Positions 8,652-34,345 of a stretch of DNA of 64,000 nucleotides are shown piece after piece. How positions within the stretch are numbered: the stretch's first letter is position 1; every line of letters starts with the position of its first letter. The position numbers were made by a program, and so were the translations under genes. The notes under the pieces were generated by a model. That model was not told where the DNA came from, did not search any database, and worked only from the letters and a program-made list of their open reading frames with translations. Source of the DNA: a virus; IMG/VR virus record IMGVR_UViG_3300031857_011362, positions 60,443 to 124,442 of that record. One strand, written 5' to 3'.

Positions 8652-9506
8652 ATGTCAACTGAAGAAGAAATTCAACAAACCATCGATTCAATGAAGGATT
8701 CACTGCTACTTACTGATAGTAGAGTGGGAGTCTTTTTGGTATATAGAAATGATAACACTGTAAGTAAGTCAATTGACATGTACGGTGAATACTGCCAAGC
8801 AGAAATTAACATAATTAAGCAATACTTACCCGATGATACTAGTCAATATATCGATATAGGTACTAACGTTGGATATCATTTAGTAGCGGTGCATAAAGAA
8901 ACAAACTGTAATGCACTGGGATTTGAACCCAATCCTAAGCATTTTGCAGTAGCATCTTACAACAGCAAAGACTACCCTAAAATTCAAATTATCAACGCTG
9001 GCGCTAGTAATAAAAAATCTGAACGTGTTTTAAAAGATTTCGACCCCGAAGTAAAATCTAACTACGGTGATATACATATCACTAATAGTAGCGAAGGCAT
9101 TCCTGTTAGAATGCTTACCTTAGATAATGTAGAACTTGCCCACTGTAACGTTATCAAAATTGACGTAGAAGGGCATGAGTTTGAAGCACTACAAGGATGT
9201 GTTAAGACTATCAGCAAATTCAGACCTGTTATCTTTTATGAAGCAATGGAATGGGATGTTTGGAATAACTGCCAACAGTTTTTAGAAGCTAGAAAATACA
9301 AACAATATTGGGTAGCTTGCAGAACTAAGCCTATTGCAGAAACATTTAAACATAGTGATGAAAACCCATTTGAAGACAGCACCGTAGCTAACATTTTAGC
9401 AGTACCGGCTGAATTAGCACAACCAGACTACTTAGTTGAAGTAGTCCCGGGTGAGGGATTTATGACATGTTTCGAACGCTATAAAAAAATTAAGATACTA
9501 TTTTGA
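8652..9506 (+). CDS. FkbM-family SAM-dependent methyltransferase
   Basis: 284 residues. The class I methyltransferase signature YIDIGTNVGYH, the GFEPNP motif and the FkbM-specific IKIDVEGHEFEALQG are all present. FkbM enzymes O-methylate sugars or small molecules and are common in phage and surface-polysaccharide gene sets. This is the first gene of the biosynthetic island. The C-terminal third (after ANILAVPAEL) has no obvious extra domain. Confidence 0.9.
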   Translation: MSTEEEIQQTIDSMKDSLLLTDSRVGVFLVYRNDNTVSKSIDMYGEYCQAEINIIKQYLPDDTSQYIDIGTNVGYHLVAVHKETNCNALGFEPNPKHFAVASYNSKDYPKIQIINAGASNKKSERVLKDFDPEVKSNYGDIHITNSSEGIPVRMLTLDNVELAHCNVIKIDVEGHEFEALQGCVKTISKFRPVIFYEAMEWDVWNNCQQFLEARKYKQYWVACRTKPIAETFKHSDENPFEDSTVANILAVPAELAQPDYLVEVVPGEGFMTCFERYKKIKILF

Positions 9507-9519
9507 TATAGTAACTACC

Positions 9520-10134
9520 ATGCAAATAGACACAGACCATTTACATCATTGGATGAGAGCTATTCGTGGTAGTAAAGATCCTTTAAGAACAATGGATGCG
9601 TTTTGGAACGGTCAAATAAAAAGCAAAGAGTGGTTAATAGATAGTTTAGATTTTGTCATTCGACCCTATATCAATAAAACAGTACTGTCAATAGACATTC
9701 ACGGCGGCTGGGTTGGAGTACTAGCCAGCATGTTGTTTCAAAGTAACCTACACATATCAACTATTCGTAATATAGATATTGACCCTGATTGTCAAGATAT
9801 AGCTCACACTATGAATCAGCTAGAAACTCATGCAGGAAGATTTCGTGCTATTACTGCTGATATGTGTGTAATTAGGTCAGATGCAGATATTGTCATAAAC
9901 ACTAGCTGTGAACATATATCACAAGATGCGTATGAATTATGGTTGTCTGGAATTAGGAACGACAGTTTGATAGTTCTGCAAAGTAATAATTACTCAATAC
10001 CAGAACATGTTCGGATTGCTAATAGCCTGGCAGAATTTAAGAGGCAGGCATGTATAGAAAATATATTATATACCGGTGAACTTGATTTGCCCCTGTATAA
10101 AAGATACATGATTATAGGAAAAAAGTATGTTTAA
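9520..10134 (+). CDS. Probable class I SAM-dependent methyltransferase
   Basis: 204 residues with a Rossmann-like start (VLSIDIHGGWVGVLASML), an acidic residue after strand 2 (RNIDIDPDCQDIA) and a strand-4 region (DADIVINTSCEHIS) that fit a class I methyltransferase fold. The SAM-binding glycine motif is divergent (IHGGW), so activity is uncertain. It overlaps the next gene by eight bases, and an AGGAA within its end serves that gene. Confidence 0.7.
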   Translation: MQIDTDHLHHWMRAIRGSKDPLRTMDAFWNGQIKSKEWLIDSLDFVIRPYINKTVLSIDIHGGWVGVLASMLFQSNLHISTIRNIDIDPDCQDIAHTMNQLETHAGRFRAITADMCVIRSDADIVINTSCEHISQDAYELWLSGIRNDSLIVLQSNNYSIPEHVRIANSLAEFKRQACIENILYTGELDLPLYKRYMIIGKKYV

Positions 10135-11218
10135 ATTCTCTGAGTTAAAAACTTTGCACATAGAGCTAACATCACGTTGTCAAGCTAGTTGCCCTATGTG
10201 TGCAAGAAACTATCATTCGGGACAAGAAAATACAAACTTACCTTTAGATGAAATTTCCGTAGATGATTTCAAAAGTATAGTTAATACAGAAGTGCTTTCT
10301 CAAATAGAATACATTTATTTTTGTGGTAACTACGGAGATCCGATAATATCTAACAACTTATTAGAGATAGTCTCTTATTGCAAAAGTCAGAAAGAAAACA
10401 TCAAGTTAGGAATACACACTAATGGTAGTGCAAGAACACCTGACTGGTGGAGTAAATTAGCAACGATATTGCCAACGGAACACAGTGTGCATTTTGCCTT
10501 AGATGGACTTGCTGACACTCATCACTTATACAGAGTAGGTACTAGCTTTGATAAAATTTTAGAAAATGCTAAGGCATTTATATCTGCAGGTGGACGTGCT
10601 GAATGGGTTTTCTTATCCTTCAAGCATAACGAACATCAAGTTGAAACAGCCAGACAGATGGCAAAAGATTTAGGGTTTGAAAAATTTACTCATAAAGCAA
10701 CTAGTAGATTTTTAGAAAAGCCGTGGTTAGATGTTATGAATGCGCAGGGTGAAGTATTATATAAAATTGAACCACCATCTGAGCATAAGATAACTTTCAT
10801 ACACCCTGATATTATCAAGTCTTATAAAAAGGTAGTCGAGACGGCATCCATCAACTGCAAAGCAATAAATACTAAATCATTGTATATTGATGCATTTAAG
10901 AATTTATGGCCCTGTTGTTGGATAGGAATGATACCGTATACTTATAGTAAGCCTGCAGATATTGTACATGAATATCAAACTGAACAGGCTAATGTTATTA
11001 ATGAACTAGTAACATCTATTGGGGGTTATGATTCAATAGACCTTCTTAAAAATTCAGTGAAGACAATTTTAGAAAACCCTGATTGGTCAACCGTGTGGGA
11101 GAAGTATTGGAATACACATAGTCTAGCAACATGCGCTAAGATATGTGGTACATTCCCAGAAAAAATAATCACACAATATGACGAACAATTTATCAAAGTA
11201 GAATCATTTAATGAGTAA
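10127..11218 (+). CDS. Radical SAM protein with SPASM-like C-terminus
   Basis: 363 residues. The Fe-S motif C-x3-C-x2-C (CQASCPMC) lies at about residues 18-25, followed by a TIM-barrel pattern (YFCGNYGDP in the GGEP position, HTNGSA, FALDG). C-terminal cysteines (NCKA, PCCWIG, CAKICG) suggest an auxiliary cluster. Family enzymes generate a 5'-deoxyadenosyl radical to modify peptides, sugars or other substrates; the substrate here is unknown. It is coupled to the next radical-SAM gene by overlap. Confidence 0.9.
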   Translation: MFKFSELKTLHIELTSRCQASCPMCARNYHSGQENTNLPLDEISVDDFKSIVNTEVLSQIEYIYFCGNYGDPIISNNLLEIVSYCKSQKENIKLGIHTNGSARTPDWWSKLATILPTEHSVHFALDGLADTHHLYRVGTSFDKILENAKAFISAGGRAEWVFLSFKHNEHQVETARQMAKDLGFEKFTHKATSRFLEKPWLDVMNAQGEVLYKIEPPSEHKITFIHPDIIKSYKKVVETASINCKAINTKSLYIDAFKNLWPCCWIGMIPYTYSKPADIVHEYQTEQANVINELVTSIGGYDSIDLLKNSVKTILENPDWSTVWEKYWNTHSLATCAKICGTFPEKIITQYDEQFIKVESFNE

Positions 11219-12623
11219 CATATATTGGCTACAACCAGAAGATAACCTGTTAGGTAAATGGCAACGCAAAGTCGCAGACATATCAGGCAGCAATACCTTT
11301 TGTATCCTGCCCTGGATTCATTTTGCCACACGACCTAACGGCGATATGAGGCTGTGCTGTGGTTCTAATTCTAGTGGTGCAGGGTCAGACCATGAGATTG
11401 GATTAGTAAAGAATGAGGCCGGATCTCCTGCTAACTTTGGCAGCGAGACTCCCATGAGTGCATGGAACAATAGCTATATGCGTTCTGTTAGAACAACAAT
11501 GCTTAACGGTGAGATTCCTAGAAGCTGTACCAAATGCTTTGATGAAGAATCAAACGGTGTGGCTAGCAAGAGAATGTGGGAGTCTGGTACATGGATACAA
11601 GATGGTCTGGATGTTAAAGAACTTATCAAGCAAACAGAAGAAGACGGAACAGTTCCTGAAAAGCTATTATACTTAGACCTAAGATTAGGTCATAACTGTA
11701 ATATCAAATGTATTATGTGTAGCCCGCATGATTCGAGTAGATGGGTACAAGATTACAAAAAAGTGTTTCCTATACTTAAGTCACCTGAAATTAAATCTCA
11801 ACTGAGTTGGAATGAAGAATCATTCAATAACAAGTGGCACGAAAATCCAGACTTTTGGAAAGAGATGTATGCGCAAATCCCTAACTTAAAGCAAGTATAT
11901 TTTGCTGGTGGCGAACCTCTAATGATTAAAGAGCATAAGTTGTTCTTAGAGGAAATTGTTCGTCAAGGTTATGCTGATAAGATTCTAATTAGATACAACT
12001 CTAATGGATTGTTACTAGATGATAGCATTATTAAACTGTGGGAGAAGTTTAGAAAAGTTAAGTTTGCATGTAGTCAGGATATGTTTGGAGACAGAAACCA
12101 CTATATCAGATACCCAACAGAGTGGGACATTGTGGAAGAGAAGCTAGATATACTAGATAACACACAGGACAACATTGAAGTAAGCATTGCTACCGCGATA
12201 CAAATTTTAAACGTCAAGAAACTACCCGAGTTTGCTAAGTGGAAGATTCAAAAGAATTTTAAGAAAATAAACAAAGCAACTGTCATGGACGAGTCTGATG
12301 CAGGTGGTGGAATCTTTAACATGCATTTTGTTTATATCCCCACGTTTCTAAGTGTCAAAATATTGCCCGAAAAAGACAAGCAAGAAGTAAGAGAAATCTA
12401 CTCAGAGTTTAAGACTTGGCTGTGGGATAACTATAGACAAGACGATAACTTTTGGCATCATAACCCATATGGATGGAAACGTTGGCAAGCTGTATTGGAT
12501 TTTATGGACAGTGAAGACCATACTCATTTACTGCCGGCGTTCAAAGAGTATATAGAGACTATGGACAGTGTTAGGGGGAATAGTTTCAAAGAAACGTTCC
12601 CTGAGTTAAGTCACTTGATTTAA
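11211..12623 (+). CDS. Twitch-domain radical SAM protein
   Basis: 470 residues. An N-terminal cysteine module (FCILPWIHFATRPNGDMRLCCG, then SCTKC) resembles a twitch/SPASM auxiliary cluster placed before the radical-SAM core. The core motif CNIKCIMC is near residue 160, with FAGGEPLM and SNGLLL downstream. This arrangement also occurs in large cyanophages. The 3' end overlaps the convergent gene by 18 bases. The homologue 13501-14805 has the same architecture. Confidence 0.9.
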   Translation: MSNIYWLQPEDNLLGKWQRKVADISGSNTFCILPWIHFATRPNGDMRLCCGSNSSGAGSDHEIGLVKNEAGSPANFGSETPMSAWNNSYMRSVRTTMLNGEIPRSCTKCFDEESNGVASKRMWESGTWIQDGLDVKELIKQTEEDGTVPEKLLYLDLRLGHNCNIKCIMCSPHDSSRWVQDYKKVFPILKSPEIKSQLSWNEESFNNKWHENPDFWKEMYAQIPNLKQVYFAGGEPLMIKEHKLFLEEIVRQGYADKILIRYNSNGLLLDDSIIKLWEKFRKVKFACSQDMFGDRNHYIRYPTEWDIVEEKLDILDNTQDNIEVSIATAIQILNVKKLPEFAKWKIQKNFKKINKATVMDESDAGGGIFNMHFVYIPTFLSVKILPEKDKQEVREIYSEFKTWLWDNYRQDDNFWHHNPYGWKRWQAVLDFMDSEDHTHLLPAFKEYIETMDSVRGNSFKETFPELSHLI

Positions 12624-13508
12624 CTTTGTCAATGGTATATCTGCCGCGCACGTACAGTAATTCCTATCACAGATAACGGGCCCGGTGGGTATAACGAACG
12701 AGTTGGTATATATATTTCCTAATGTTCCACCAACTCTACACGTAGCCCGATGTACGTCACCGTCCCAGTTAATCATTAAACTTTCTAATCCTGCATTGCA
12801 ATGCCAACCTTTATATTGATTTAAATGCTTTTTAATCACATCATTGGCATGCATCATTAGTTCACGGTCCTTGTATATCAATACAGTATTAGGTTCTACT
12901 GTACTACTCTTACTCAGTATCCAATCTAAGTCGTTTTGGTCATACTTCATATCATCAAACAAATCGTGGTCACCTTCAGTCCAACGTATCCTACGTATAC
13001 CGTGATTAATAGTATGGTGCTCTAATAAGCCCGCCGCCGTCTTTACTTCTCGCATATGATTATGATGAGCCATAACATTAACTAACACGTGAGTGTGCAT
13101 AACAGTTTCATGGACAGCTTTGATAGTGTATAATACATTTAACCAATCATATTCAAAGTGTAGTGAGAACACCCATTGGTCTACTTGCTGAGATGTATAC
13201 CAGCTATCCTTTCTAGTTCCATTAGTAGTAATACTAAGCCAAAAGCCCTTACTCTTAATATATGCTATGAGTTCTTCTATACGAGGATGTACGCATGGTT
13301 CACCACCAGTTAAACTTAAGCGAATAGGTTTTTCTAAGTCACATAATCTATCTACAGTTGCCTTAAGTAGTTCAATATCGGTATGGGGACTAGAATTATC
13401 GTGTATAACTGACGGACAATAACTACAGTCATAGTTACAGCGTTTCCCTATGTTCCATTCAATCTTAATACTGTCCTGATGATTCCATCGACTTTTAACT
13501 TTATGCAT
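12606..13508 (-). CDS. Radical SAM protein, SPASM type
   Basis: 300 residues. CNYDCSYC near residue 24 binds the radical-SAM cluster, with SLTGGEP and TTNGT downstream. C-terminal cysteines (WHCNAGLESLMINWDGDVHRATC, then CDRNYCTCA) match a SPASM auxiliary-cluster domain of the type found in peptide-modifying enzymes. It is read from the opposite strand to the preceding pair and overlaps the upstream twitch gene by eight bases, forming a three-gene operon with the PP-loop gene. Confidence 0.9.
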   Translation of the reverse strand: MHKVKSRWNHQDSIKIEWNIGKRCNYDCSYCPSVIHDNSSPHTDIELLKATVDRLCDLEKPIRLSLTGGEPCVHPRIEELIAYIKSKGFWLSITTNGTRKDSWYTSQQVDQWVFSLHFEYDWLNVLYTIKAVHETVMHTHVLVNVMAHHNHMREVKTAAGLLEHHTINHGIRRIRWTEGDHDLFDDMKYDQNDLDWILSKSSTVEPNTVLIYKDRELMMHANDVIKKHLNQYKGWHCNAGLESLMINWDGDVHRATCRVGGTLGNIYTNSFVIPTGPVICDRNYCTCAADIPLTKLNQVT

Positions 13509-14805
13509 AGGGCTTAAACTCTGGAATCACTGTTAATAAACTTTGGTTACGACTACTATCTAGTTCATAGTTAAATGATAAAAAATCTTGCCACAAGTGA
13601 TGTTGATCCTTTGCACGTAAGTAATTGATATTGTCTTTTATCTGTTGCTGTGTTACCTTTTCTAGTATGGGGTGCTTAACAACATTACTAAATGTGTGGA
13701 CTTTTTTACTGACTGTTTCAAGACGTTGTATAGCTAATTCTTTGAGTTCATGTGGTAACACTTGTGCTGAAAGACAATTGGGATAGCTGACACGATGACT
13801 ATAGAACACAATATTCATCTTATTGATAAAATAGTCAATGCATTCAGCTGCCTGCAGTATATTACCTGCTTGTGCTGTAAACGCACCCACTACACGACTT
13901 ACATTGGTTATTGTTTGAATTTCTTTTATATTTCTTTCTACCTCAGTAAAGTCACCGTTGCCTCTTATGTAGTCATACACATCGTTGATTCCATCTAGAC
14001 TAACATTAACTGCAATGCTTCTAAAGTGTGGCCAATAATCATGTATTGTGCGTCCCTTACTGATACCAAGTGTGGTCCCGTTAGTAGCATATTTGAGTTC
14101 AATGTTTTTACCATATGGTTTTAACATGTCTAGTATCTTATAATGTTGCGGGTCCATTAATGGCTCACCACCTGCAAATTCTACTCGCCTAAAGTGTGGT
14201 AGTAATTTTTCAAAGCTAGCCCACCAGTTGTCAGTGTCATCAAATGCACCTATATACTTGCCGGGCTTGTTTACCAATGATTCAATTGTGGGTACTAAAA
14301 AGTTATTTTCTTTTTTATAAAAGGGTACAACTTTATCCCAATCCGTCCAATTAGTGCTATCTAATGGATTGCACATGCGACATTTCAAGTTGCATAGATT
14401 GTTAAGTTTAATTTCCATCGTAGGAAATGTGAAGGGCAGTATTTCTTGTAGAGGCGTATCTGGATACAAGTTGATTCGTGCTTCGGGAATGACTCCATTA
14501 ATATGTCGCTGACGTAGACTTTCTACGCCCTGATCTTCTAAATCAAAGCAAGGCTTGCATACCTCAGGACGTTCTCCACACAGTACTTGCCTACGAACAA
14601 GTTGCATTGTATCATTATTCCAAATTTCTTCTAGTGTGTTATCTGCTATATTACCAATTGGTGCACTACGACAACAGACTTTAACTGCCCCATCTTCACG
14701 TGTAGCTAGCCCGGTAAAAGGATGCATACAAAACGTTTTACTTTGATTGTTCAATTGCCCACTCTCTTTCCTTACACCAAAAACATGTATTACACAACGG
14801 AACAT
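13501..14805 (-). CDS. Twitch-domain radical SAM protein
   Basis: 434 residues with an N-terminal auxiliary cysteine module (FCMHPFTGLATREDGAVKVCC, VCKPC) and a radical-SAM core (CNLKCRMC, FAGGEPLMD, ATNGT). It has the same layout as 11211-12623. The start is uncertain: ATG 14805 has an AGGA site five bases upstream but overlaps the PP-loop gene by 68 bases, while TTG 14754 has AAGGAAAG upstream and overlaps by only 17. The domain begins after either start. Confidence 0.88.
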   Translation of the reverse strand: MFRCVIHVFGVRKESGQLNNQSKTFCMHPFTGLATREDGAVKVCCRSAPIGNIADNTLEEIWNNDTMQLVRRQVLCGERPEVCKPCFDLEDQGVESLRQRHINGVIPEARINLYPDTPLQEILPFTFPTMEIKLNNLCNLKCRMCNPLDSTNWTDWDKVVPFYKKENNFLVPTIESLVNKPGKYIGAFDDTDNWWASFEKLLPHFRRVEFAGGEPLMDPQHYKILDMLKPYGKNIELKYATNGTTLGISKGRTIHDYWPHFRSIAVNVSLDGINDVYDYIRGNGDFTEVERNIKEIQTITNVSRVVGAFTAQAGNILQAAECIDYFINKMNIVFYSHRVSYPNCLSAQVLPHELKELAIQRLETVSKKVHTFSNVVKHPILEKVTQQQIKDNINYLRAKDQHHLWQDFLSFNYELDSSRNQSLLTVIPEFKPYA

Positions 14806-15439
14806 ATTGTCCTGTTATGTAATTTTTATAATTTAAATCGTCAAACACGCCTTCACAACTTCTAGTTAGTTCAAACAGTTCTAGTAAGTTTTGCTTTCTA
14901 TACTCAGTTAGTATTTCTTTCTTTTCTAAGAATCTAAAAGGATGAATGGCAAGTTTACCCATATGAGTAGTATACTCTAAATGCTTATTGTACTCCGTGG
15001 GGTCAATGTCTCTAGTATGCATCCCGTCAAATTCTACAGCTTTTGGATTTCGTGTCACCGCGTTATAATATACGTCAATGTCATGTGAATAGCATATGTA
15101 TTCAGCAAAAGAACGTAACTCAATATTATCGCCGCTGACTGTCTTTCCATATTCGTCAGTTAGAGTGGGTCCTAAGGCTCCCCACTCCATTTCTGGCGGG
15201 ATAAAGTTTTCATGCCTAAACATCTTAACGTTAGGAAACTTAATCTGTAACCAATTATATATACCAAGAGCATCATTTCTTTGCCAGGGCTTTGTTTTCC
15301 AGCATCTGACATGTGATATTATATGTAGTTCTTGATTGGTTATTTGCTGACATATGAGAAATGCTAGCAATGCACTATCGGCACCACCACTTAGACTAAT
15401 AGATATCTTGTTCCAACTATTATCAAAGTGAATATTCAT
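14738..15439 (-). CDS. PP-loop ATPase with QueC-like cysteine cluster
   Basis: 233 residues. SISLSGGADSALLAF is the N-type ATP-pyrophosphatase PP-loop. The C-terminus has C-x(n)-C-x2-C-x2-C (SCEG...LCNTCFWCKER), the zinc-site layout of QueC, which makes 7-cyano-7-deazaguanine. No QueD, QueE or QueF is recognised nearby, so it may act on another substrate. It is the promoter-proximal gene of a minus-strand operon whose start is set by a TATAAATA-like element. Confidence 0.8.
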   Translation of the reverse strand: MNIHFDNSWNKISISLSGGADSALLAFLICQQITNQELHIISHVRCWKTKPWQRNDALGIYNWLQIKFPNVKMFRHENFIPPEMEWGALGPTLTDEYGKTVSGDNIELRSFAEYICYSHDIDVYYNAVTRNPKAVEFDGMHTRDIDPTEYNKHLEYTTHMGKLAIHPFRFLEKKEILTEYRKQNLLELFELTRSCEGVFDDLNYKNYITGQYVPLCNTCFWCKEREWAIEQSK

Positions 15440-15478
15440 GTATATATTTATTAGCTACCTTACAGTCTTATAAATAAT
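15440..15478. promoter_or_regulatory. Divergent late-promoter node 1
   Basis: The 39-base gap between divergent genes holds AATAAATA on the minus strand (15452-15445), five bases before ATG 15439, and TATAAATA on the plus strand (15469-15476), five bases before ATG 15482. Neither gene has a Shine-Dalgarno site. The spacing predicts transcription starting at or next to each ATG. Confidence 0.7.
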
Positions 15479-15481
15479 ATG

Positions 15482-16165
15482 ATGCTTAAAGAATTAAATC
15501 ACACTGTACCAAAAGATATTCTAGATAAAGCCATGGCAGAATTTTCTTATAGTGACTTTAAGACACCTATTAATGAGCCCACTGGTAACTTTTTCTATAG
15601 TCCATGGACTATTAGACCAGAGTTTAAAGATACTGTATGGGAATATATCTTACAAACTCTGCCCTATTCAATTGGGGAAGCAAGATTAATAAACTTAAAA
15701 TACGGAACATGCTATCAAAGTCATGCTGATATAGATGATAGATATCATTTAAACATACAGGGTGACATTTCTGCACTGATTAATTTAGAGACAAACACAA
15801 TGTATCCTGTAACTACAGATGGTAAATGGTACGAAATGGATGCGTCAAATAGACACAGCGCCGCAAACTTTGGATATGTAGAAAGAATACAGTTGGTAGT
15901 TAGAAAGCTGTTAAACAAGAATGATATATCAAATCCAACAATGATTGTTATAAAGAGTAAAACGGATAATGAATTTAGCAATAGATTTCTATTCGATAAT
16001 CAGATAAGCGGAGTTCTCAACAGCTACAACAAAAACAATATTATTACAGATTTCAATCCTACTAGCAAAGAAGTCAGACTCTGTATTAATTCAGATTACA
16101 TTAGTGAATTAGAATCTAAAATGTCTGAAAACTTCTATATAGAACATATCAAGGAACAACAATGA
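15482..16165 (+). CDS. Probable 2-oxoglutarate/Fe(II) oxygenase (Asp/Asn hydroxylase-like)
   Basis: About 227 residues. HADID supplies the H-x-D iron ligands near residue 110, and NRHSAANFGYVERIQLVVR supplies the distal His and the Arg that usually binds 2-oxoglutarate, as in aspartyl/asparaginyl beta-hydroxylase-like proteins. The C-terminal 80 residues are an extra domain with no assignment. ATG 15479 is also possible, but ATG 15482 fits the promoter spacing. It overlaps the next start by ATGA. Confidence 0.78.
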   Translation: MLKELNHTVPKDILDKAMAEFSYSDFKTPINEPTGNFFYSPWTIRPEFKDTVWEYILQTLPYSIGEARLINLKYGTCYQSHADIDDRYHLNIQGDISALINLETNTMYPVTTDGKWYEMDASNRHSAANFGYVERIQLVVRKLLNKNDISNPTMIVIKSKTDNEFSNRFLFDNQISGVLNSYNKNNIITDFNPTSKEVRLCINSDYISELESKMSENFYIEHIKEQQ

Positions 16166-16854
16166 TTAACAATACCGGATGGGAATATATTTACAAATTA
16201 ACGAACGGCTACCCCTGTTCTACTAATGTACTATATACTCCTACTACGAATGCACAACGTGACCGAATGTGTATGCACTTTTCCACATATTCTCCTGAAT
16301 ATATGACTGGTAGTTGCGTACCACGATCAGATGAGCTTATGGACTCATTCTTTCAACGTGAATTAAAGTATTTAAGTCTATTTCAGGGTCAAGCCTGGTG
16401 TCCTGAAATATATGAAGTTGATGCAACTGAGAGAAAGATTCTAGTAGAGTTTAATGGCGAAAGTTTAAACTGGCCTGTATATACTGAGGGTAGAGATTTA
16501 AATCATGAATTCCCGTCATGGAAAGAAGACTTGTACAATATTATTAAAAGTATTCATGATTTGGGTTATCATAAGGCATCTATATATCCCCATTGCTTCT
16601 TCTATACAAAGACTAACCAGCTTAAAATGGTAGACTATTATGCAACATTAGATAAAAATGACACAAGAATGCATAAAAGCCTTATTGAGCCAATCATTGG
16701 TGTAGATAGTCAGCAACGTTTTATAGAAGTTAAAGACGGTGATTACTATGAAATGGCAGATCACTTTAAGAATTCAATGAAGACTTGGATTAAATGGCCG
16801 GACGATCCTTTACCAGAATTCTATGATAGAATTATTCAAGGAATTTCAACATGA
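16162..16854 (+). CDS. Kinase-like protein A, probably catalytically altered
   Basis: 230 residues, a paralogue of 22336-23019. A helix (FQRELKYLSLF) and strands (KILVEFNGESLNW) precede a segment shaped like a kinase catalytic loop (HDLGYHKASIYPHCFFY...LKMVDYYA). The Asp of the HxD motif is replaced (H-K-A), while an Asp in the DFG position (VDY) remains. It may be a degenerate small-molecule kinase or a binding protein. It sits between two oxygenase genes with ATGA overlaps. Confidence 0.7.
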   Translation: MINNTGWEYIYKLTNGYPCSTNVLYTPTTNAQRDRMCMHFSTYSPEYMTGSCVPRSDELMDSFFQRELKYLSLFQGQAWCPEIYEVDATERKILVEFNGESLNWPVYTEGRDLNHEFPSWKEDLYNIIKSIHDLGYHKASIYPHCFFYTKTNQLKMVDYYATLDKNDTRMHKSLIEPIIGVDSQQRFIEVKDGDYYEMADHFKNSMKTWIKWPDDPLPEFYDRIIQGIST

Positions 16855-17402
16855 CACCAGTTAATGCAGAATATATAACAGTCGATGTACCCTTTGACTG
16901 GGCTAGTATATTAGACAGTTTAAAAGATAAAGAGGGTGTTGACATAACACCTGATCCTAGCATTTGGAGAATGGAAGTTCCTGCATACACTGAGATATTA
17001 AATATCTGGAAAGATGCAAATTACAAACTTGATTCTGTCAAATGGACTAACTATTACCCGGGCGAACATTACGATACGGGCGATATTGACGAAACACTAT
17101 GTAAGATACTTAATGTACAATTAAGACGTAGTTGGATAAGTAGAATTGATCCGGGTTATTCAGCACCCTGGCATTGGGATGTTGAAGATGACCCGGAAGA
17201 AGTGGGTGATGCACTACGATATACTGTATTCTTGGGAGACGCTAAATTAGGACATATCTTTATATTAGGTGAAGAAGATTACTTTTTCAATGTTAAACAC
17301 GGAACAATGATTAAGTGGAATAGATATGATGAGTGGCATATAGGAATGAATGCAGGATTAGTTCCTAAATATATGTATCACCTTAAAGCTAAACGTCTTT
17401 AA
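16851..17402 (+). CDS. Probable 2-oxoglutarate/Fe(II) oxygenase
   Basis: 183 residues. APWHWDVED gives the H-x-D pair, followed by LRYTVFL, HIFILG and a distal EWHIGMN His, in the order expected for a cupin-fold Fe(II) oxygenase. It belongs to a plus-strand operon with 15482-16165 and 16162-16854. The 3' end overlaps the convergent gene by 14 bases. Confidence 0.8.
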   Translation: MTPVNAEYITVDVPFDWASILDSLKDKEGVDITPDPSIWRMEVPAYTEILNIWKDANYKLDSVKWTNYYPGEHYDTGDIDETLCKILNVQLRRSWISRIDPGYSAPWHWDVEDDPEEVGDALRYTVFLGDAKLGHIFILGEEDYFFNVKHGTMIKWNRYDEWHIGMNAGLVPKYMYHLKAKRL

Positions 17403-17940
17403 GCATTCTCCACTTGCTTAATCTATTGTTATTTACTTTATCTACATAAATTAAAGGTATATCAATATTAGACTCAATGATGAATTTAATTGTTTCAACA
17501 ATATCATCGGGGTCTATTTTGACATCTTCTTCTACTCCAAATCTTTGAAACCCGCTGGTTATTAAGTGTGTAGTTTTTATATGTTCGCTAGCTAATTCTA
17601 AGCTAGCATTTCTTATAGACAGTTTTTCATTACCAGTCACTGGATCAAGGTGTTTCCACTCGTCAAATTCTAATATAGTTCCTATACTAATGATATGTCC
17701 GTTGTCTAATATACTAGCAACATCACGTAATGCTCTTTCTTGAAACCCCAATTCAATCTGTGAATGATTAATAAACACATTAAATTCTTTAACTATATTA
17801 AGAAATCTATTATATCCTTCAACTGTTTTTAAATCATACCCCGTAGTTCTACTGATAAACACTGTGTCAGGGTAATACTTCAACAAACTTTTAGTGATGC
17901 CACCGTGATTAGGATCACCTGTGCATATAATCTTAGTCAT
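17389..17940 (-). CDS. Short-chain-dehydrogenase-like Rossmann protein
   Basis: 183 residues. The N-terminus IICTGDPNHGGITKSLL resembles the TGxxxGxG nucleotide-binding turn of short-chain dehydrogenases, and VFINHSQ and GHIISIGT fit the following strands. The YxxxK catalytic pair is not obvious (NEKLSIRNAS at that place). It may be an oxidoreductase for a sugar or small molecule. It is the last gene of a minus-strand operon beginning at 22293. Confidence 0.65.
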   Translation of the reverse strand: MTKIICTGDPNHGGITKSLLKYYPDTVFISRTTGYDLKTVEGYNRFLNIVKEFNVFINHSQIELGFQERALRDVASILDNGHIISIGTILEFDEWKHLDPVTGNEKLSIRNASLELASEHIKTTHLITSGFQRFGVEEDVKIDPDDIVETIKFIIESNIDIPLIYVDKVNNNRLSKWRMLKDV

Positions 17941-24151: not shown

Positions 24152-24159
24152 GTTAAATC

Positions 24160-26813: not shown

Positions 26814-27485
26814 TTATATTAGTGAAGACTCAACTAAACATTCTTTAATGTCTTTTGCTATTTGTTCATGTGTTAGTGGACCTGGGTGACAATTATCTAA
26901 TGCGTAATCTACAAAATTCCCTACTATTAACTTAATATCCTTATAAGGTATTTTAACGTATTTGGGTTTATAATCTCTTAAGCTGTCATAATCTACAAAG
27001 AAATTATAATGCGGAACATTTATACTAGATAGATATAAATTAGCATGATGTACATGTAACCAAGTCCTCATTATTAAATCAGTGTCATTGTGGGCCAACA
27101 TCCAGTCTTTTGATAGACCATCATGGGCCCAAGATCCAACATGCACTGCCATATCAGCGTGGTCTATTTTTTTACTAAAAAACTCTAACGTCGGGTTGTA
27201 CTTTTCGTGGAATATCATATCCCTACTATGAAAACTCCACATTACCACACATAGTGAGTCATTATTAAAGTTAGTGTTGAGTATTCTATGCAATATTGCA
27301 AGATTGCTAAACCCCGGCCCACTACGGTTGACCATGTTGTATTCTAAATCTTTTGCTAGTAAAGACGGCCACGCATATTGACTACATACTGAGCCAACCG
27401 TATAATCATTACCCTGCTTCATCCAGCAGTCTTCTAAGCCGTGACCGTATGTATATGAATCTCCAAAAGCAAATAGTGTTCTCAT
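26814..27485 (-). CDS. SGNH/GDSL-family hydrolase
   Basis: 223 residues. Block I FAFGDSYTYG carries the nucleophile Ser, block II NRSGPGFSN the oxyanion Gly, and block V NCHPGPLTHEQ the His of the D/N-x-x-H pair. SGNH enzymes act as esterases or deacetylases on lipids and glycans. There is no signal peptide. It is linked to the upstream radical-SAM gene by a four-base overlap. A second, shorter SGNH protein lies at 53092-53511. Confidence 0.87.
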   Translation of the reverse strand: MRTLFAFGDSYTYGHGLEDCWMKQGNDYTVGSVCSQYAWPSLLAKDLEYNMVNRSGPGFSNLAILHRILNTNFNNDSLCVVMWSFHSRDMIFHEKYNPTLEFFSKKIDHADMAVHVGSWAHDGLSKDWMLAHNDTDLIMRTWLHVHHANLYLSSINVPHYNFFVDYDSLRDYKPKYVKIPYKDIKLIVGNFVDYALDNCHPGPLTHEQIAKDIKECLVESSLI

Positions 27486-28474
27486 AATTTTTCTTTTGGT
27501 ATCTTACTGTCAGCACTAGAGACACATGAAGGTGTAGTACAAATTACCGGTTTGTCAAAGATAGTAAAACCTTTACTTAGTGACCCTAACGGTGTATCAC
27601 TGCAACTATAACTACGTTTTACTTCATCACTGCGTATCACTATGCCCTGATACCCACTATTACACATCCATCCTTCAAACTTGTTGAATCCAAATGCATT
27701 GAATCGTTCTGCTTGATCTAGCCAGTGCACCTTGTTTGTATCATCTATTAGTTTAACTTGTAGTACAGGCTCATCATTTGCCTGTTGAGGAAATCCATTA
27801 CGCATGATTTGTATCATTTCATCAGTATACCCACTAACAACAAAACTAGCAGTAGGATCACTCTGTGGCTTAAGTGTGACATTGATCCCACGTTTATGAA
27901 AACGTTGTAGTCGTTCATAGCTTTCCCAAAAGAATTCAGGAACCATAACTTGATTGACTGTTACATAGACTTGTTCCTGCATCAATGCTAGAATCTTATC
28001 TCCAAACTCGTTCTCTTTGGCAAACTCTGCATGAAAACTAGCAGTTAGGCTTCTACGTTGTAATAGACTAGTAGCTTTATCCCAACGTAGCCACCAATTG
28101 ATACTGGGCGACAGATTGGTAGTCATGTGGACACTTTGATAACCTTCGACTGGACCTTCATCTAAGTGTTGAGTGAGTTCTAGCAAATGCTTATATGCTG
28201 TGGGTTCTCCACCACTAAAGCTCCAGTGAAACTTGTTAAACCCATTACGTCTAGCTTGTTCTTTGATACTGTCAATAGAGTTCTTGTATATTTGTAAATC
28301 TTGATGGTCTGGCACATTGCTATTAGCATATGGCCAGCAATAGCTACAGCTATAATTACAGAATCTTCCAAGTATCCAGCTAACGGTGAATAAGTCCATG
28401 TCAAGCATATTTGCTTGCCCAAACTTAACTATCCTATCGAATGGAATATCACTGAAGTTGTTTTGTGTACTCAT
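27482..28474 (-). CDS. Radical SAM protein
   Basis: 330 residues. CNYSCSYC near residue 39 is the cluster motif, with SFSGGEPTAY and MTTNLS downstream. C-terminal cysteines (WMCNSGYQ, SYSCSDTPLG, VICTTPSCVSS) suggest an auxiliary-cluster site. It overlaps the upstream glycosyltransferase gene by 26 bases, so the two are probably co-translated. Confidence 0.9.
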   Translation of the reverse strand: MSTQNNFSDIPFDRIVKFGQANMLDMDLFTVSWILGRFCNYSCSYCWPYANSNVPDHQDLQIYKNSIDSIKEQARRNGFNKFHWSFSGGEPTAYKHLLELTQHLDEGPVEGYQSVHMTTNLSPSINWWLRWDKATSLLQRRSLTASFHAEFAKENEFGDKILALMQEQVYVTVNQVMVPEFFWESYERLQRFHKRGINVTLKPQSDPTASFVVSGYTDEMIQIMRNGFPQQANDEPVLQVKLIDDTNKVHWLDQAERFNAFGFNKFEGWMCNSGYQGIVIRSDEVKRSYSCSDTPLGSLSKGFTIFDKPVICTTPSCVSSADSKIPKEKL

Positions 28475-29990
28475 CGTGTAGCCATTCGTAGTTGTTGATT
28501 AGTTTAAGTTTTTCGTTATCGTTTTTGTTTGCTTCGCCATATAGCTTGCCCATCAATGCACCTCGAATTGTCTCACGACCGTATTGTTCTTCAGCACCAA
28601 CACTGCACCACGTGAACAGTCTGTCTAATGTTTCACTTGATTGTTGCCTGTCAATAACTTGGCTAGATAGTTTGACACATTCACGGAAAGCAGTACGCCA
28701 AGAACTAAACTCATCTGTGTTAAACTTGTGTATGTTGCTTATGATGTGTACAGGCTCATACAGTGTGCTAATGCTGGTAGTCATATCTACTTTATCAGTA
28801 CTCATACGCATGGTAGCAAGACGAGGAAGCAGTTTAATTCCACCGTGACCGTATACTAATTTGTTTACAGGATTGATAGAACGAAATACTCTGACAGTAG
28901 GTTGTTCGTAAAACTTCACATCATTGTATACAAAGTTAAAATCATCGTGTATGATTGCATCACCATCTACTACCCAAAAGTAATCAGTCTGACACATCTT
29001 TGCCGCACGTATGTGTGCATTGTGTATACCCTGAACCCCACTCAATACTTTAGTACGGGGGAAACGTTCTTTAACTTTGTTGAAATTTTCTTCTGCTTCG
29101 GGTTCGTTGTTGTGAATGAATACAATATCATACTTTGGGGTATAGTTTACAGGGCTACGTGTTGGGTTAGTAATACGGGTCCTGTAATCACTACATACCC
29201 AACCTTGTAGTGCTATCCCGATGTTATTATCGTTGGTCTTTTCTTTTATCAATATACCTAGTACATTTACTTCTTCTAATAATGTCCCTGGCATTACATT
29301 TGTCATATGCTCAAACAGTTTATCAAGGAATGAAAAATTCTTAACGTTGTTTGAACCGTCCCAGTAATTGACCTTGAGCATAAAGTAAGCTAGTCTTGCA
29401 CCATAAACAGCGTATAGTCCGTTCTCTATATCTTCGCCAATGTGCATCCAACGCCATATCCTATCATAATTACGCCAGTCTATGTTATCATCACGTGTGA
29501 GTTTTATGACTTCACGGAAGCCTGCACGCCATGCTTGTAGTGGGCTAGCATTAATGTGCAAATCGCTACCTATATTGTTTAGTTCTATGTACTTGTTTAA
29601 CACAAAGTCAATGCTATCGTCATCACCGTTTTCGTGTGTACGCATTTCTATGATATGTTTAACAGGCCAGCATTTGATACCACCATTTCCATAACTAGTG
29701 CCATTGACAATGTTATATCCTGCATAGCTTATAACATCCTCATCCGAATACTCTATATCAATATCAGTTGTATAGAAGTCATCTCTGACCCAATTGTCTC
29801 CGTCAATGATGACAACACGGTCAGTTGTTGCTAGTTTAGCACATTCTTTGTGTGCAGTATCACTACCCTCTACCCCATGCACTCTTAGAGCATTTGGGTT
29901 TAGAGTTAATAAATGTTGATAGTTTTCTTCACAGTTTGGTTCATCATAGCTTAGAAACACTGTGGTATAGTCTGAGGGATTAAATCGCAT
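28449..29990 (-). CDS. Tandem-duplicated GT-A glycosyltransferase-like protein
   Basis: 513 residues made of two homologous halves. Each has an F-(L/I)-S/H-x-(N/D)EP start, EENY/EENF, a V-x-G-(V/S)-x-G turn, an acidic DGD motif (IIDGDNW and VVDGDAI, the metal-binding DxD of GT-A enzymes), GNGGIK/GHGGIK and a W-R-A/T-(G/A)-FRE(V/C)(I/V)KL segment. It may add two sugars or form an internal dimer. It starts at ATG 29990, five bases after TATAAATA on the minus strand, with no ribosome site. Confidence 0.82.
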   Translation of the reverse strand: MRFNPSDYTTVFLSYDEPNCEENYQHLLTLNPNALRVHGVEGSDTAHKECAKLATTDRVVIIDGDNWVRDDFYTTDIDIEYSDEDVISYAGYNIVNGTSYGNGGIKCWPVKHIIEMRTHENGDDDSIDFVLNKYIELNNIGSDLHINASPLQAWRAGFREVIKLTRDDNIDWRNYDRIWRWMHIGEDIENGLYAVYGARLAYFMLKVNYWDGSNNVKNFSFLDKLFEHMTNVMPGTLLEEVNVLGILIKEKTNDNNIGIALQGWVCSDYRTRITNPTRSPVNYTPKYDIVFIHNNEPEAEENFNKVKERFPRTKVLSGVQGIHNAHIRAAKMCQTDYFWVVDGDAIIHDDFNFVYNDVKFYEQPTVRVFRSINPVNKLVYGHGGIKLLPRLATMRMSTDKVDMTTSISTLYEPVHIISNIHKFNTDEFSSWRTAFRECVKLSSQVIDRQQSSETLDRLFTWCSVGAEEQYGRETIRGALMGKLYGEANKNDNEKLKLINNYEWLHDEYTKQLQ

Positions 29991-30016
29991 GACTGTATTT
30001 ATAATGTAAATATGTC
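29991..30016. promoter_or_regulatory. Divergent late-promoter node 4
   Basis: This 26-base gap contains TATAAATA on the minus strand (30003-29996), five bases before ATG 29990, and TGTAAATA on the plus strand (30005-30012), four bases before ATG 30017. There is no room for a ribosome site or leader. Confidence 0.68.
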
Positions 30017-31375
30017 ATGCTTAAGATTATTAGTTCGCCACCATTTGATGATTATAGTAAAAAACTGTTCTTTCAATTATTCGGTCAAAAGAAAAAATTG
30101 GGTCTGGATAGTGCTAGTTTTATATACTTGTGGACTGGACCATTAACTAATAACAACACCTATTCATACAGCAATTCTATATCGTTTAATACAAACCCTA
30201 CATCATTGCCCAAATTTGTTGATTTTATGTTATCTCATGCACGGATGCTAGCCGGTAAAAAAAGATTTTTTAACTCACGTGATGAAATGTTTTCTTTATA
30301 TCTTGAGTATGTTGGGGTAGATGTTTCACGTGAAATATTTGACCAGTACTATTCTACCTATGTAGAAAGCATCATAGACCGTAGTACAATGGAAGATATG
30401 ATTCAAGAGGCATGCATAAATGACGTTATAGTATTATTTGTCAAAGATCACTTTAGAATAAATTTTAAAAATTCTTGGATTGATCCAATACCCGAACTGG
30501 TTACTTACTTTGCAAATTTGTGTAATTACTTCCCTGATAAAAAATTTATCATTGTTACTAGTTTGGAAAACTTAGATAAAGAACTAAAATCTAGCAATTG
30601 TAAAATAGTGAACATGGGCGGAGATATAACTAATCAGATATCAAGTTATATGAATTTTACCCCTTTGATAGAAAAATCCGCAACTAAGAATTTTATATCA
30701 TTGAACCGAGGAGATAGACCCCATAGGGTGTATCTGGTTTCAAATTTATATGCTAAAAATTTACACAATCACGGGCAGATTAGTTTATTAACCCCGCAGA
30801 ACCCGAATGCAAAACTCAATGAAGCAATTATCTATAACTATAAAAATGACCAAAATTATGAATTATCAAACATTGGTTTCAGTAAGTATGTGGCCGAACA
30901 TAACCATCAGATAGCCGATAGCTATAATATTTACCCTCAGCGTGGTAATGACAATTTACGAAATTTCCAAGATTCTTTACAGAGTAAGTATCTTAATAGT
31001 TATGTGGAATTTGTTTCGGAAACCAGTTTCAATGAAAAGAGCTTTAACATAACGGAAAAAACACTACATTTCATATACGGTTGCAATTATCCTATAATGA
31101 TTTCTAGTCCCGGCGTAGTCAAATTTCTGCGAGAAATGGGAATAGATATGTTTGATGATATAATTGACCATTCATATGATGATATAGAAGATCCTTGTGA
31201 CCGCATAGTCCAGGCTATAAACAAAAATATAAAAATTTTAACTATGGATCTGAATTCTCTACGGAAACAGTGGGAAAATGATAAATACAGAATGGAGCAA
31301 AATATTAAATTTGTCCAGACCAAATTAGCTAAATTCTATCAGGATAGATTTTGGCAACAGATTAAAGGATTATAA
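30017..31375 (+). CDS. Glycosyltransferase-like protein (GT10-like C-terminus)
   Basis: 452 residues. The region SLNRGDRPHRVYLVSNL and the C-terminal ITEKTLHFIYGCNYPIMISSPGVVKFLREMGIDMFDDIIDHSYD match the donor-binding part of fucosyltransferase/exostosin-like GT-B enzymes. The N-terminal 200 residues are not recognised. It probably transfers a sugar in surface or virion glycan assembly. The gene has a late promoter directly before its ATG and is followed after one base by a sulfotransferase-like gene. Confidence 0.72.
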   Translation: MLKIISSPPFDDYSKKLFFQLFGQKKKLGLDSASFIYLWTGPLTNNNTYSYSNSISFNTNPTSLPKFVDFMLSHARMLAGKKRFFNSRDEMFSLYLEYVGVDVSREIFDQYYSTYVESIIDRSTMEDMIQEACINDVIVLFVKDHFRINFKNSWIDPIPELVTYFANLCNYFPDKKFIIVTSLENLDKELKSSNCKIVNMGGDITNQISSYMNFTPLIEKSATKNFISLNRGDRPHRVYLVSNLYAKNLHNHGQISLLTPQNPNAKLNEAIIYNYKNDQNYELSNIGFSKYVAEHNHQIADSYNIYPQRGNDNLRNFQDSLQSKYLNSYVEFVSETSFNEKSFNITEKTLHFIYGCNYPIMISSPGVVKFLREMGIDMFDDIIDHSYDDIEDPCDRIVQAINKNIKILTMDLNSLRKQWENDKYRMEQNIKFVQTKLAKFYQDRFWQQIKGL

Positions 31376-32001: not shown

Positions 32002-32016
32002 GTATAAAGTTACGTG

Positions 32017-32617
32017 ATGCTAAACCAACCCAGTCTGGCAATTCTTATTGATTTTTGGAATCCAATAGCAATCAAAAGGGTTAACAATACTATTGAATTT
32101 TTGAGTACCAATGATACTATCAAAACTGTAGTATTATCAACTTATAATTCCCGCTCTGAGTTATTTTTTAATAATACTATTTGGTACCGTAATCGAAAAG
32201 AATGGTATAAAAAATCACCAACATGGGCCCAAAATAAGTCAACGGTAGAAGACACTGCATATATAAAAAACAACAGTTTAAAAAATGTAACCACTGATAC
32301 GCATATACTTCAGTATTATAATTCAAAACAATATCAAATTGCAATGCTCCAGTTACTGGGAACTAGAGTATTATTTGTCTATGCACCCGGAAATAAAAAA
32401 CGTATATATATTTGGTTGTGCATGGGAGGACTGTGTTAAACATAGACCGATTGGTTATTTGGCACTGTCACAGCTACAAAATGTTAACATATTAACTAAT
32501 ACTACTTTAGTAAGTAACATTGCAATGAAACGTCCCGATTTATCTTTAGATCGTGACTGGATCAATGTAGAGGGAAACGTATATAGGTATTTGGGCAACG
32601 AGAAGGTTGACTCTTAA
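32017..32617 (+). pseudogene. Frameshifted isochorismatase-like protein
   Basis: Two overlapping frames look like one protein. The first (32017 onward) starts LAILIDFWNP and contains TIKTVVLSTYNSR. The second (open from 32291 to the stop at 32615-32617) continues LEYYLSMHPEIKNVYIFGCAWEDCVKHRPIGY, which resembles the cysteine-containing end of isochorismatase-fold hydrolases. A +1 shift near 32335-32365 would join them. It could be a real pseudogene, a programmed shift or a sequencing error; no strong slippery site is evident. Confidence 0.5.
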
Positions 32618-32847: not shown

Positions 32848-32875
32848 CAAGTTAACATCATAACTAAAATTATCT

Positions 32876-32984: not shown

Positions 32985-33359
32985 ATGAACAAAGAACAAA
33001 AAAGCGAGTATGCGAAAGAAAGATATAAAAAGAATAGAGAAAGGTTACTAGAGTATCAGAACAAACGATACAACGAAACATTGGATATCTTCCAGCAATG
33101 GAGAAAAACTTTGAAGTGTTGTAGATGTGAGGAGAATGATGTTGCTTGTTTAGAGTTTCATCATAGCGATCCAGAGACAAAGGAAAATAATGTCGTAAGG
33201 ATGGTATCTCGCAGTGTGAAGTCTGTTATCAAAGAACTCAAAAAATGTGTTGTAGTTTGTGCTAATTGTCATCGCAGGATACATGCGTATGACATAAAAA
33301 CAGACCCTAACACCGAGGATCTAGGAACAAGTTTTGAAAATTTTTTGAAAGAAATTTGA
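32985..33359 (+). CDS. HNH endonuclease
   Basis: 124 residues. A charged N-terminal helix is followed by CCRCEEN...LEFHHSDP...VVCANCHRRIH, the zinc-ribbon HNH pattern with two C-x2-C pairs and catalytic H-H. It is a free-standing homing-type gene with a GATAAATA element (32959-32966) and a GAAGGA ribosome site. The last codons (GAA ATT TGA) form part of the downstream promoter's -35 box. Confidence 0.88.
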   Translation: MNKEQKSEYAKERYKKNRERLLEYQNKRYNETLDIFQQWRKTLKCCRCEENDVACLEFHHSDPETKENNVVRMVSRSVKSVIKELKKCVVVCANCHRRIHAYDIKTDPNTEDLGTSFENFLKEI

Positions 33360-33384
33360 CAATAAATGGACAAAAAGATACAAT
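33356..33384 (+). promoter_or_regulatory. Sigma70-type promoter of the TTGACAATAAATGG family
   Basis: TTGACA (33356-33361) and TACAAT (33379-33384) with a 17-base spacer; the -35 box overlaps the HNH stop codon. It reads toward the structured region 33534-33769. Confidence 0.65.
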
Positions 33385-33533
33385 ACAAAACTTCTGAAAC
33401 AAAACGTGATTGGTATTCTACTCACACATTGACGAAGGAACAATACGCACAGTTGATACAAAATAAGATCGACCGTGTAAAGTCTTATCAAGAGGCTACC
33501 AAGAAAGCTAACAAGCTAGCAGGTATCACTTGA
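33366..33533 (+). CDS. Possible 55-residue protein overlapping a promoter
   Basis: MDKKIQYKTSETKRDWYSTHTLTKEQ... is basic, helical and protein-like. Its ATG lies within the spacer of the promoter 33356-33384, so transcripts from that promoter would lack the start; expression would need read-through from the HNH gene. No ribosome site is visible. Confidence 0.4.
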   Translation: MDKKIQYKTSETKRDWYSTHTLTKEQYAQLIQNKIDRVKSYQEATKKANKLAGIT

Positions 33534-33769
33534 TAGGCAGCGTGAACAGGCAACGAGAGCCGTAATACAGCGCAAAATGTATAGAATGGGCGGACAGGAA
33601 ACATGAACGAGTGGCGATAACACTCTTAGTAAGACTCCTGGGTAGGGTATCAACCCTATCATGTCGTGTAGCAATACACGGCATTCTAAAACATACGTAG
33701 TGAAACACTTTAGCTTACAACGCTATACCCACACGACTCGGGAGTACTAGGTGTGTTTTAGAATGCCAC
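33534..33769 (+). ncRNA. Putative structured RNA 1
   Basis: No protein gene is seen. Perfect inverted repeats are GGCATTCTAAAACA (33680-33693) with TGTTTTAGAATGCC (33754-33767), and TAGGGT-ATCA-ACCCTA. GTCGTGT also pairs with ACACGAC, and ACTCC with GGAGT. A sigma70 promoter lies about 150 bases upstream. The final arm resembles that of the region 40009-40284. Confidence 0.45.
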
Positions 33770-34345
33770 TTAAGTATTTGGTGTATTATAGATTCTTTCT
33801 ATATATTTTTTTATATTGTATATGTTAACAGGCTCTATGATCTTAGCATTATGTGACCCCAACAGATTATTGTTTAACAAATATTCATAAGTTAATTCTT
33901 CGTCAAATTTTATAGCTAAGTCATTGATTAATTTATCATTTTTGTTTATTATATCGATTGATTTTCTAACCGAATCAGCTAGAAATTTTACTGTATATTT
34001 TTCACCTCGGGCAAGACTATTCTTTGAGTTCCATATTGTTGTCATCTCGGCTACATAGTAGCTAGCAATTTGTTCAATTTTATTTTCTCTGGTCAATTTT
34101 ATTTTATAACAATCGCTGTTTAAAATTTCTTGATAAAGTAAATGTTTATCAATTTGGTCAGGCATAAATTTTACTACAAATGGTTCGTTATTTACAAACA
34201 ACTTTTCTAAAAGATTGTATTCTTCTTCATAAAGATGCGGTTCAGGAAAACATTTGGCTTCATTGTCTTTTGATAATTTGAAAGTGTAGTCACTAGAACC
34301 TGTTCTATAATTTGCCAATAGTAATATACGATTTTTTGTTGTCAT
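33770..34345 (-). CDS. Sulfotransferase-like protein
   Basis: 191 residues. ILLLANYRTGSSDYTF matches the PAPS 5'-phosphosulfate loop (R-T-G-S-S) of Stf0-like sulfotransferases, and IKLTRENKIEQIASYY matches the 3'-phosphate-binding R...S/A region. It may sulfate a glycan made by the island enzymes. It starts at ATG 34345, four bases after an ACTAAATA late-type element, with no ribosome site. Confidence 0.75.
   Translation of the reverse strand: MTTKNRILLLANYRTGSSDYTFKLSKDNEAKCFPEPHLYEEEYNLLEKLFVNNEPFVVKFMPDQIDKHLLYQEILNSDCYKIKLTRENKIEQIASYYVAEMTTIWNSKNSLARGEKYTVKFLADSVRKSIDIINKNDKLINDLAIKFDEELTYEYLLNNNLLGSHNAKIIEPVNIYNIKKYIERIYNTPNT

Follow-up and report, generated by a model that had tools for sequence, protein, structure and literature searches.

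Clusters of radical S-adenosylmethionine (SAM) genes in phage genomes have been noted since 2010, and no function has been attached to them. The closest known example is the interchangeable radical-SAM module of the Campylobacter phages CP220 and CPt10 (Eucampyvirinae), which is replaced as a block between these otherwise similar phages (PMC2853527). We have analysed a 64,000-nucleotide stretch of DNA (hereafter the window, bases 60,443-124,442 of the 124,442-base IMG/VR record IMGVR_UViG_3300031857_011362) in which a large freshwater bacterial virus holds a block, or island, of approximately 25 kb composed of radical-SAM enzymes and iron-oxygen enzymes, the latter being candidate 2-oxoglutarate/Fe(II) (2OG) oxygenases. 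The record carries a T4-type gp23 capsid gene (gp23 family match, E 3e-102). All positions given below are those of the window, and genes are named by their lower coordinate.

CP220 resembles the virus studied here in being a T4-related phage, in clustering its radical-SAM genes (five in CP220, seven in the island) and in exchanging them as a block. The CP220 module also includes GT-A-type proteins and immediately follows genes for a gp5-like lysozyme and a PAAR protein. However, the proteins of the two modules are ~25% identical at best and have no fixed core of N-twitch radical-SAM enzymes in common. Furthermore, CP220 encodes a glycine amidinotransferase, for which family profiles gave no hit among the island proteins, whereas neither a 2OG-oxygenase family nor kinase-fold proteins have been noted in CP220.

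A marine T4-like environmental genome, TARA_ERS488813_N000010, is described as carrying 12 radical-SAM genes and an A-type carrier (PMC5332604), and it resembles island-bearing phages in its many radical-SAM genes and its phage-borne iron-sulphur (Fe-S) assembly genes. In the passages of that description considered here, cassette exchange, a glycan context and an oxygenase island are not seen. Pelagibacter phage Mosig EXVC030M (Kyanoviridae) has AspH-type oxygenases, MoaA-like radical-SAM proteins, a GNAT protein and a methyltransferase beside its tail-fibre genes, in a region that also includes an aminotransferase and a carbamoyltransferase, but its whole record yields only two radical-SAM matches and its composition differs in other respects. 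Among bacteria, Bdellovibrionota bins and a few others contain an operon of full-length homologues of 27482, 10127 and 11211, often together with 9520, which adjoins GT2 glycosyltransferase genes and a GH3 glycosidase gene and, in other bins, nucleoside diphosphate (NDP)-sugar enzymes, namely an epimerase and a UDP-sugar dehydrogenase. These bacterial proteins differ from those of the island in sharing only 30-54% identity with them, and the operons lack almost all of the island's oxygenases and kinase-fold proteins. Literature searches for radical-SAM enzymes with phage 2OG oxygenases or virion glycosylation returned nothing relevant besides the CP220 and marine papers.

We propose, with a probability of roughly one half, that the island specifies a late, exchangeable pathway that equips tail proteins of the virion with a glycan-type group tailored by radical enzymes and oxygenases. 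Specifically, the island would be a late, cytosolic biosynthetic pathway that T4-type freshwater phages carry as an exchangeable cassette. Glycosyltransferases would attach a glycan-type group, the N-twitch and other radical-SAM enzymes would tailor it together with 2OG oxygenases, methyltransferases and acyltransferases, and the tailored group would finally be borne by virion proteins of the tail or tail fibre. Because a swap of the whole cassette would alter the decoration while leaving the rest of the phage constant, this chemistry has probably been selected for variation, for example in receptor interaction or in escape from virion recognition. We infer that the motif described below is a promoter, that the product is a glycan, that it is attached to the virion and why it varies. 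The competing explanations are, by falling probability, direct modification of peptides, alteration of the host surface, modification of DNA and production of a free metabolite.

Limits, content and exchange of the island

The enzyme block is dense, with genes on both strands, and is situated between an FkbM-type methyltransferase gene (8652-9506, plus strand; PF05050 60.6 bits) and a region of 28 tRNA genes (34384-45485). We place the limits of the putative cassette at 9515 and 34380. The left edge is the switch point in a relative, L088, that is 99.8% identical over window positions 1-9514 and whose homology stops there, just past the FkbM stop codon. The right edge (~34,380) is set by the first tRNA gene, with homology to another relative, L031, returning at 34381. 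Since L088 has the same DNA up to 9514 and a different cassette beyond it, these alignments indicate that the island is swapped whole, as a unit, between near-identical viruses. The replacement cassette in L088 encodes an AMP-binding protein, AspH-type oxygenases, another N-twitch-like radical-SAM enzyme and an APH-like kinase whose HGD...N...D loop is apparently intact. The FkbM gene is retained in L088 at 99.8% DNA identity beside this different island and therefore belongs to the phage backbone. An earlier note on this DNA had counted it among the island genes; its description as a methyltransferase is supported by the profile match, but its place is outside the swapped part. The converse case is provided by L008, in which the island proteins are 92-99% identical (70% for 16162) and the adjoining tail protein is only 78% identical. 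Single genes are also shuffled: the identity of 12606 is 88% (L031) and 86% (L108), against 40-65% for several of its neighbours.

All seven radical-SAM proteins recognized in the earlier note exceed the Pfam cut-off for PF04055, and the whole 124,442-base record has no radical-SAM genes besides these seven, which span ~18 kb. Two of them score above 170 bits, the curated whole-protein cut-off of NF033640, which is the NCBI twitch-domain radical-SAM family. These are N-twitch enzyme 1 (11211-12623, plus strand; 383 bits), a member of the conserved core, and N-twitch enzyme 2 (13501-14805, minus strand; 314 bits), the best-conserved protein of the island. The core also includes 10127-11218 (plus strand; PF04055 43.4 bits; bacterial homologues at 33-38% identity) and 12606-13508 (minus strand; 46.5 bits), which has a C-terminal Cys motif and reaches 55 bits against the prokaryotic viperin model NF038283, short of its 180-bit cut-off. 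The other three are a B12-binding-type enzyme (19766-21232, minus strand; PF04055 48.8 bits, with PF02310 at 25.2 bits and below cut-off), an enzyme with an N-terminal HMPTM zinc ribbon (21232-22293, minus strand; PF04055 62.8 bits, PF23545 51.5 bits) and 27482-28474 (minus strand; PF04055 42.1 bits; bacterial homologues at 45-54% identity).

The seven oxygenases proposed in the same note (15479, 16851, 17933, 18457, 18966, 23564 and 24714) fare less uniformly. Only the AspH-type protein 24714-25499 (minus strand; PF05118 52.6 bits) passes a Pfam cut-off; its start is probably an ATG near 25370, the listed TTG start overlapping 25403 by 97 nt. Two candidates score below cut-off, namely 15479 and the AspH-type protein 23564-24178 (minus strand; PF05118 18.3 bits), the latter being present in the alternative cassette of L088 as well, and the Pfam search gave no match for 16851, 17933, 18457 or 18966. 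However, an HxD...H triad is invariant across relatives in the aligned families of 15479-16165 (plus strand; H82xD84...H126), 16851-17402 (plus strand; H108xD110...H163) and 18966-19778 (minus strand; H180xD182...H236), and in the one family formed by the paralogues 17933-18457 (minus strand; H103xD105...H155) and 18457-18966 (minus strand; placed by the family alignment). Both 15479 and 18966 belong to the core.

The 13501 protein has relatives on at least 234 IMG/VR contigs (one scan), and the 80 that were fetched are mostly 70-85% identical to it. We sampled co-occurrence in 30 non-redundant loci (each at least 20 kb), with open reading frames (ORFs) clustered into families. As 13501 served to choose the loci, the counts tell which genes accompany it. 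The 12606 family is present in all 30 loci, 10127, 15479 and 22336 in 29 each, 18966 in 28, 16851 in 26, and the PP-loop protein 14738 and the GNAT-like protein 23012 in 25 each. The median locus has eight CxxxCxxC ORFs. Across most of the fetched loci the ORF families recur and the gene order is kept in part. The genes that the earlier note had grouped are indeed found together, in dozens of phages.

Freshwater phages commonly carry this set, and isolates essentially lack it. Among 50,697 phage records, 13501 matches just four Vibrio phages at 23-26% identity, and neither 9520 nor 18966 has a match; among 84,980 bacterial and archaeal genomes the best match to 13501 is 36% identical. The records of relatives reach 364 kb, and all of those above 150 kb carry gp23. 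Each of 20 relatives' records has 6-19 radical-SAM matches. Most of the listed ones share a single stretch, such as 171-188 kb of a 358-kb record; in G003, two of 19 fall outside it. This clustering exceeds chance by far. A 3.5-kb contig in a Thermoplasmata archaeon bin (L142) encodes proteins 65% and 58% identical to 11211 and 12606, and is probably misbinned phage DNA.

Expression, genomic context and possible product

The sequence TATAAATA is a known T4 late-promoter element. Over the 30 islands, the late-type motif ATAAATA occurs within 30 nt before 47 of 168 divergent gene starts as opposed to five of 532 internal ones (Fisher 3e-26), with its end mostly 4-5 nt from the start codon. At 28%, ATAAATA outranks all 20 other permutations of its letters, the next best of which reaches 9%. 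In the window, TATAAATA precedes 15479 (15469-15476, plus strand), 22336 (22321-22328, plus strand) and 28449-29990 (29996-30003, minus strand), and ATAAATA precedes 14738-15439 (15445-15451, minus strand) and 21232-22293 (22298-22304, minus strand). The total number of TATAAATA copies in the window is at chance level (9 versus 10.4), so the information lies solely in where the motif stands with respect to divergent starts. The same genome has ATAAATA before tail-fibre-type genes, a virion protein and RCC1-repeat proteins as well. We conclude from the motif's placement that the island is probably a late-expressed set.

ATAAATA ends 4 nt before the starts of fibre-type genes in L109-L111 and in the window (e.g. 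L110:7911, L110:15206 and L110:17637). A gap of 4-5 nt would put the transcription start at the start codon, and late messages may thus be leaderless. RCC1-repeat (beta-propeller) proteins found behind the motif (L110:17637-19583 and L111:12163-13341) are probable virion proteins.

Position provides a second connection with the particle. In the relatives G002 and G005, which are near-identical here, and in G004, the gene order runs from fibres through paired virion-like proteins and two GT-A-like proteins to (in G004) an epimerase, a GT2 related to 28449 and radical-SAM genes of the N-twitch type; the fibre, virion, GT-A and NDP-sugar epimerase calls in these loci were made by eye, without profiles. 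Glycosyltransferases are thus encoded beside virion genes in two relatives, and the window itself has one tandem GT2-type enzyme (28449-29990, minus strand; PF00535 27.6 bits, cut-off 23.3), the tandem glycosyltransferase that the earlier note had recognized, whose homologues are located beside the bacterial radical-SAM operons. Epimerase/dehydratase families recur in other islands, and Vibrio phage K566 has N-twitch-like radical-SAM genes together with GT8 genes. Promoter motif, position and cassette exchange tie the island set to the virion. Decoration of a glycan or of virion proteins had been among the roles suggested earlier, and late-type motifs, fibre adjacency, glycosyltransferases with epimerases and the lack of membrane proteins now argue for it, with glycan chemistry and a virion target being the parts that we infer.

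The kinship with bacterial glycan clusters also suits a pathway that alters the surface of the host cell rather than the virion, for example for superinfection exclusion, as does the presence of FkbM and Stf0-like genes, which usually go with surface glycans. However, the island has no convincing membrane protein, the sole membrane hit being the PP-loop region, and no flippase, polymerase or exporter, which argues against an exported surface polysaccharide or a secreted metabolite. The late-type motifs shared with fibre genes and the fibre adjacency in relatives likewise speak against this explanation, and we consider it improbable.

Direct modification of virion-protein side chains by radical chemistry and hydroxylation, with a structural protein as the substrate and no sugar involved, is the strongest competitor, and we regard it as unlikely. 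Such enzymes would act in the manner of maturases of the ribosomally synthesised and post-translationally modified peptide (RiPP) type and of AspH-type hydroxylases. The N-twitch/SPASM-type architecture, the AspH-type oxygenases and the late-type motifs are all compatible with this mode of action, as is a sub-threshold structural similarity to the sactipeptide enzymes CteB and SuiB. A structure model of the N-twitch enzyme is of moderate quality (pLDDT 71.7), and Foldseek gave no match under 1e-3 with it, with MoaA, DesII, CteB and BlsE near the top; these weak, mixed matches do not separate sugar from peptide substrates. However, glycosyltransferases and epimerases accompany the radical-SAM core in both phages and bacteria, and the solved relative of 15479 acts on a nucleoside-antibiotic intermediate. 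Moreover, the intergenic DNA between 9507 and 32013 sums to ~160 nt, no ORF there fits a precursor and no conserved small protein family occurs within the island at the 30 loci, which bears out the earlier report that a short precursor peptide is lacking. All scores of the island proteins against RiPP maturase equivalog models are far under the cut-offs. With no precursor, no conserved small ORF and no maturase model over its cut-off, a RiPP was dropped as the leading idea. The fibre-like protein 24160-24717 (minus strand), offered earlier as a candidate substrate, does not hold up in this role, being found in just two fetched loci, in contrast to the near-universal enzyme core, and only once in the record.

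Some of the island enzymes point to nucleotides. The profile of 15479 matches a Cpz10-type beta-hydroxylase (7v4f, 2e-18), and the substrate of this best solved relative is a nucleoside-antibiotic intermediate (PMC9814697); solved-structure profile searches with 18966, 16851 and the PP-loop protein found no match. The PP-loop ATPase itself (14738-15439, minus strand; SGGADS) is a core protein, with invariant SGGADSA and C..CFWCKER motifs in 25 of 30 loci. The earlier comparison with QueC is thus backed by conserved motifs, including a QueC-like Cys cluster, but the similarity is weak, at 15.3 bits against a cut-off of 22. A QueC-like PP-loop protein, radical-SAM enzymes, methyltransferases and oxygenases are known from pathways to hypermodified nucleobases, and the tRNA array is adjacent, such that the island could conceivably make a modified nucleobase or nucleotide for phage DNA (or tRNA). 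Nevertheless, a thymidylate synthase/dCMP hydroxymethylase-type gene is absent from the record and from 364-kb and 282-kb relatives (PF00303 is absent from G000, G001, G003 and G004 and present in G002 and G005), no Tet/JBP domain occurs in the island, and the promoter motifs are of late rather than early type. A search for DpdA gave no match in eight records, and no control match either. DNA hypermodification is therefore disfavoured, and we rate it as slightly more remote than a change of the host surface.

The same Cpz10-like oxygenase, and a mix of radical-SAM, oxygenase, methyltransferase, GNAT and PP-loop proteins that resembles natural-product clusters, might instead indicate a small diffusible metabolite, akin to an antibiotic or a nucleoside antibiotic, made in the infected cell. 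We consider this the least probable explanation, as the island has no carrier protein, no NRPS/PKS and no exporter, and as late-type motifs and a linkage to fibres would be unexpected.

Several observations weigh against a late pathway for a virion-borne glycan. The GT2 of 28449 is the only profile-supported glycosyltransferase of the window, whose island has no recognized enzyme for making NDP-sugars. The link with fibre genes comes from just the two lineages checked for it, and those edges of G001 and G003 that were examined do not show it. The B12-type radical-SAM enzyme is found in only seven of 30 loci and the HMPTM-type enzyme in only three. The motif by itself is no proof of a late promoter, and gp23 lacks an exact copy in the 80 nt examined. 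Finally, this 124-kb record, possibly an incomplete one, lacks genes for IscU and the A-type carrier.

Such Fe-S genes are frequent elsewhere. IscU occurs in 10 of 20 island-bearing records (G001-G003, G005, G006, G008, G010, G011, G013 and G014; e.g. L193:1498-1893) and an A-type Fe-S carrier in 12, the two often being neighbours, while close IscU homologues number only a handful among the 50,697 phage records. Island-bearing phages thus invest in Fe-S chemistry through phage-borne assembly genes. A bolder and distinctly tentative proposal is that T4-type phages, supported in relatives by this Fe-S assembly, use an exchangeable late radical-SAM/2OG island to build unprecedented groups on their tail fibres. 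If true, a phage that swapped its cassette would present particles of another surface chemistry, much as bacteria do by varying their O-antigens. The ties of the set to the virion make the question of why a phage would carry a dozen radical enzymes directly testable.

Other proteins of the island and its surroundings

The island set points to a reservoir of candidate radical and oxygenase chemistry that includes a conserved kinase-fold protein without catalytic residues. This protein (22336-23019, plus strand; 29 of 30 loci) matches the TTK profile at 1.6e-6 with an alignment, and its model (pLDDT 90.7) matches kinases in Foldseek, in agreement with the earlier description of it as kinase-like. 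Aligned to TTK, its family has S, S and N in place of the HRD Asp, the catalytic-loop Asn and the DFG Asp of active kinases, which identifies it, as judged from these residues, as a pseudokinase. Since nearly every locus carries it, it may serve the pathway by binding or as a scaffold. The second kinase-like protein of the earlier note (16162-16854, plus strand) is a paralogue of 22336 by family clustering. It is 70% identical to its L008 counterpart where its neighbours are 93-97% identical, which marks a local hot spot of change.

A class I methyltransferase-like core protein, MT02 (9520-10134, plus strand; 21 of 30 loci), has conserved GGW, DIDP and DMC motifs and no Pfam match; a match to hemagglutinin (E 0.006) was taken as chance. 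A two-domain protein with one methyltransferase-like half (25403-26809, plus strand; PF04672 22.0 bits, below cut-off) is paired with 24714 in relatives. The GNAT-like protein (23012-23563, plus strand) owes its name to the earlier note and has no profile hit, although it recurs in 25 of 30 loci. Similarly, the SGNH/GDSL-like assignment of 26814-27485 (minus strand; PF00657 19.1 bits, below cut-off) is weak, and only one of two suggested sulfotransferases, the Stf0-like protein 33770-34345 (minus strand; PF09037 17.3 bits, cut-off 22), is found again, also below threshold. The reading of the large protein 30017-31375 (plus strand) as GT10-like has no profile support; a 35% homologue lies beside the island in G002 and G005. 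An uncharacterised protein (17389-17940, minus strand) without a family match is rare in relatives (two of 30 loci).

Toward the right edge of the island, one gene appears to be broken into two overlapping ORFs in different frames (32014-32617), and an HNH endonuclease-like ORF, recognized by eye, is situated at the edge itself (32985-33359), with another inside the tRNA region (35562-36215). GIY-YIG endonuclease-like ORFs, also recognized by eye, are found at 39472-40008 and at 2870-3430, the latter between nrdB and tail genes and missing from several relatives. Lastly, an ORF at 49533-50294 with an SxxK motif resembles, by eye, a D-Ala-D-Ala carboxypeptidase and is located behind ATAAATA.

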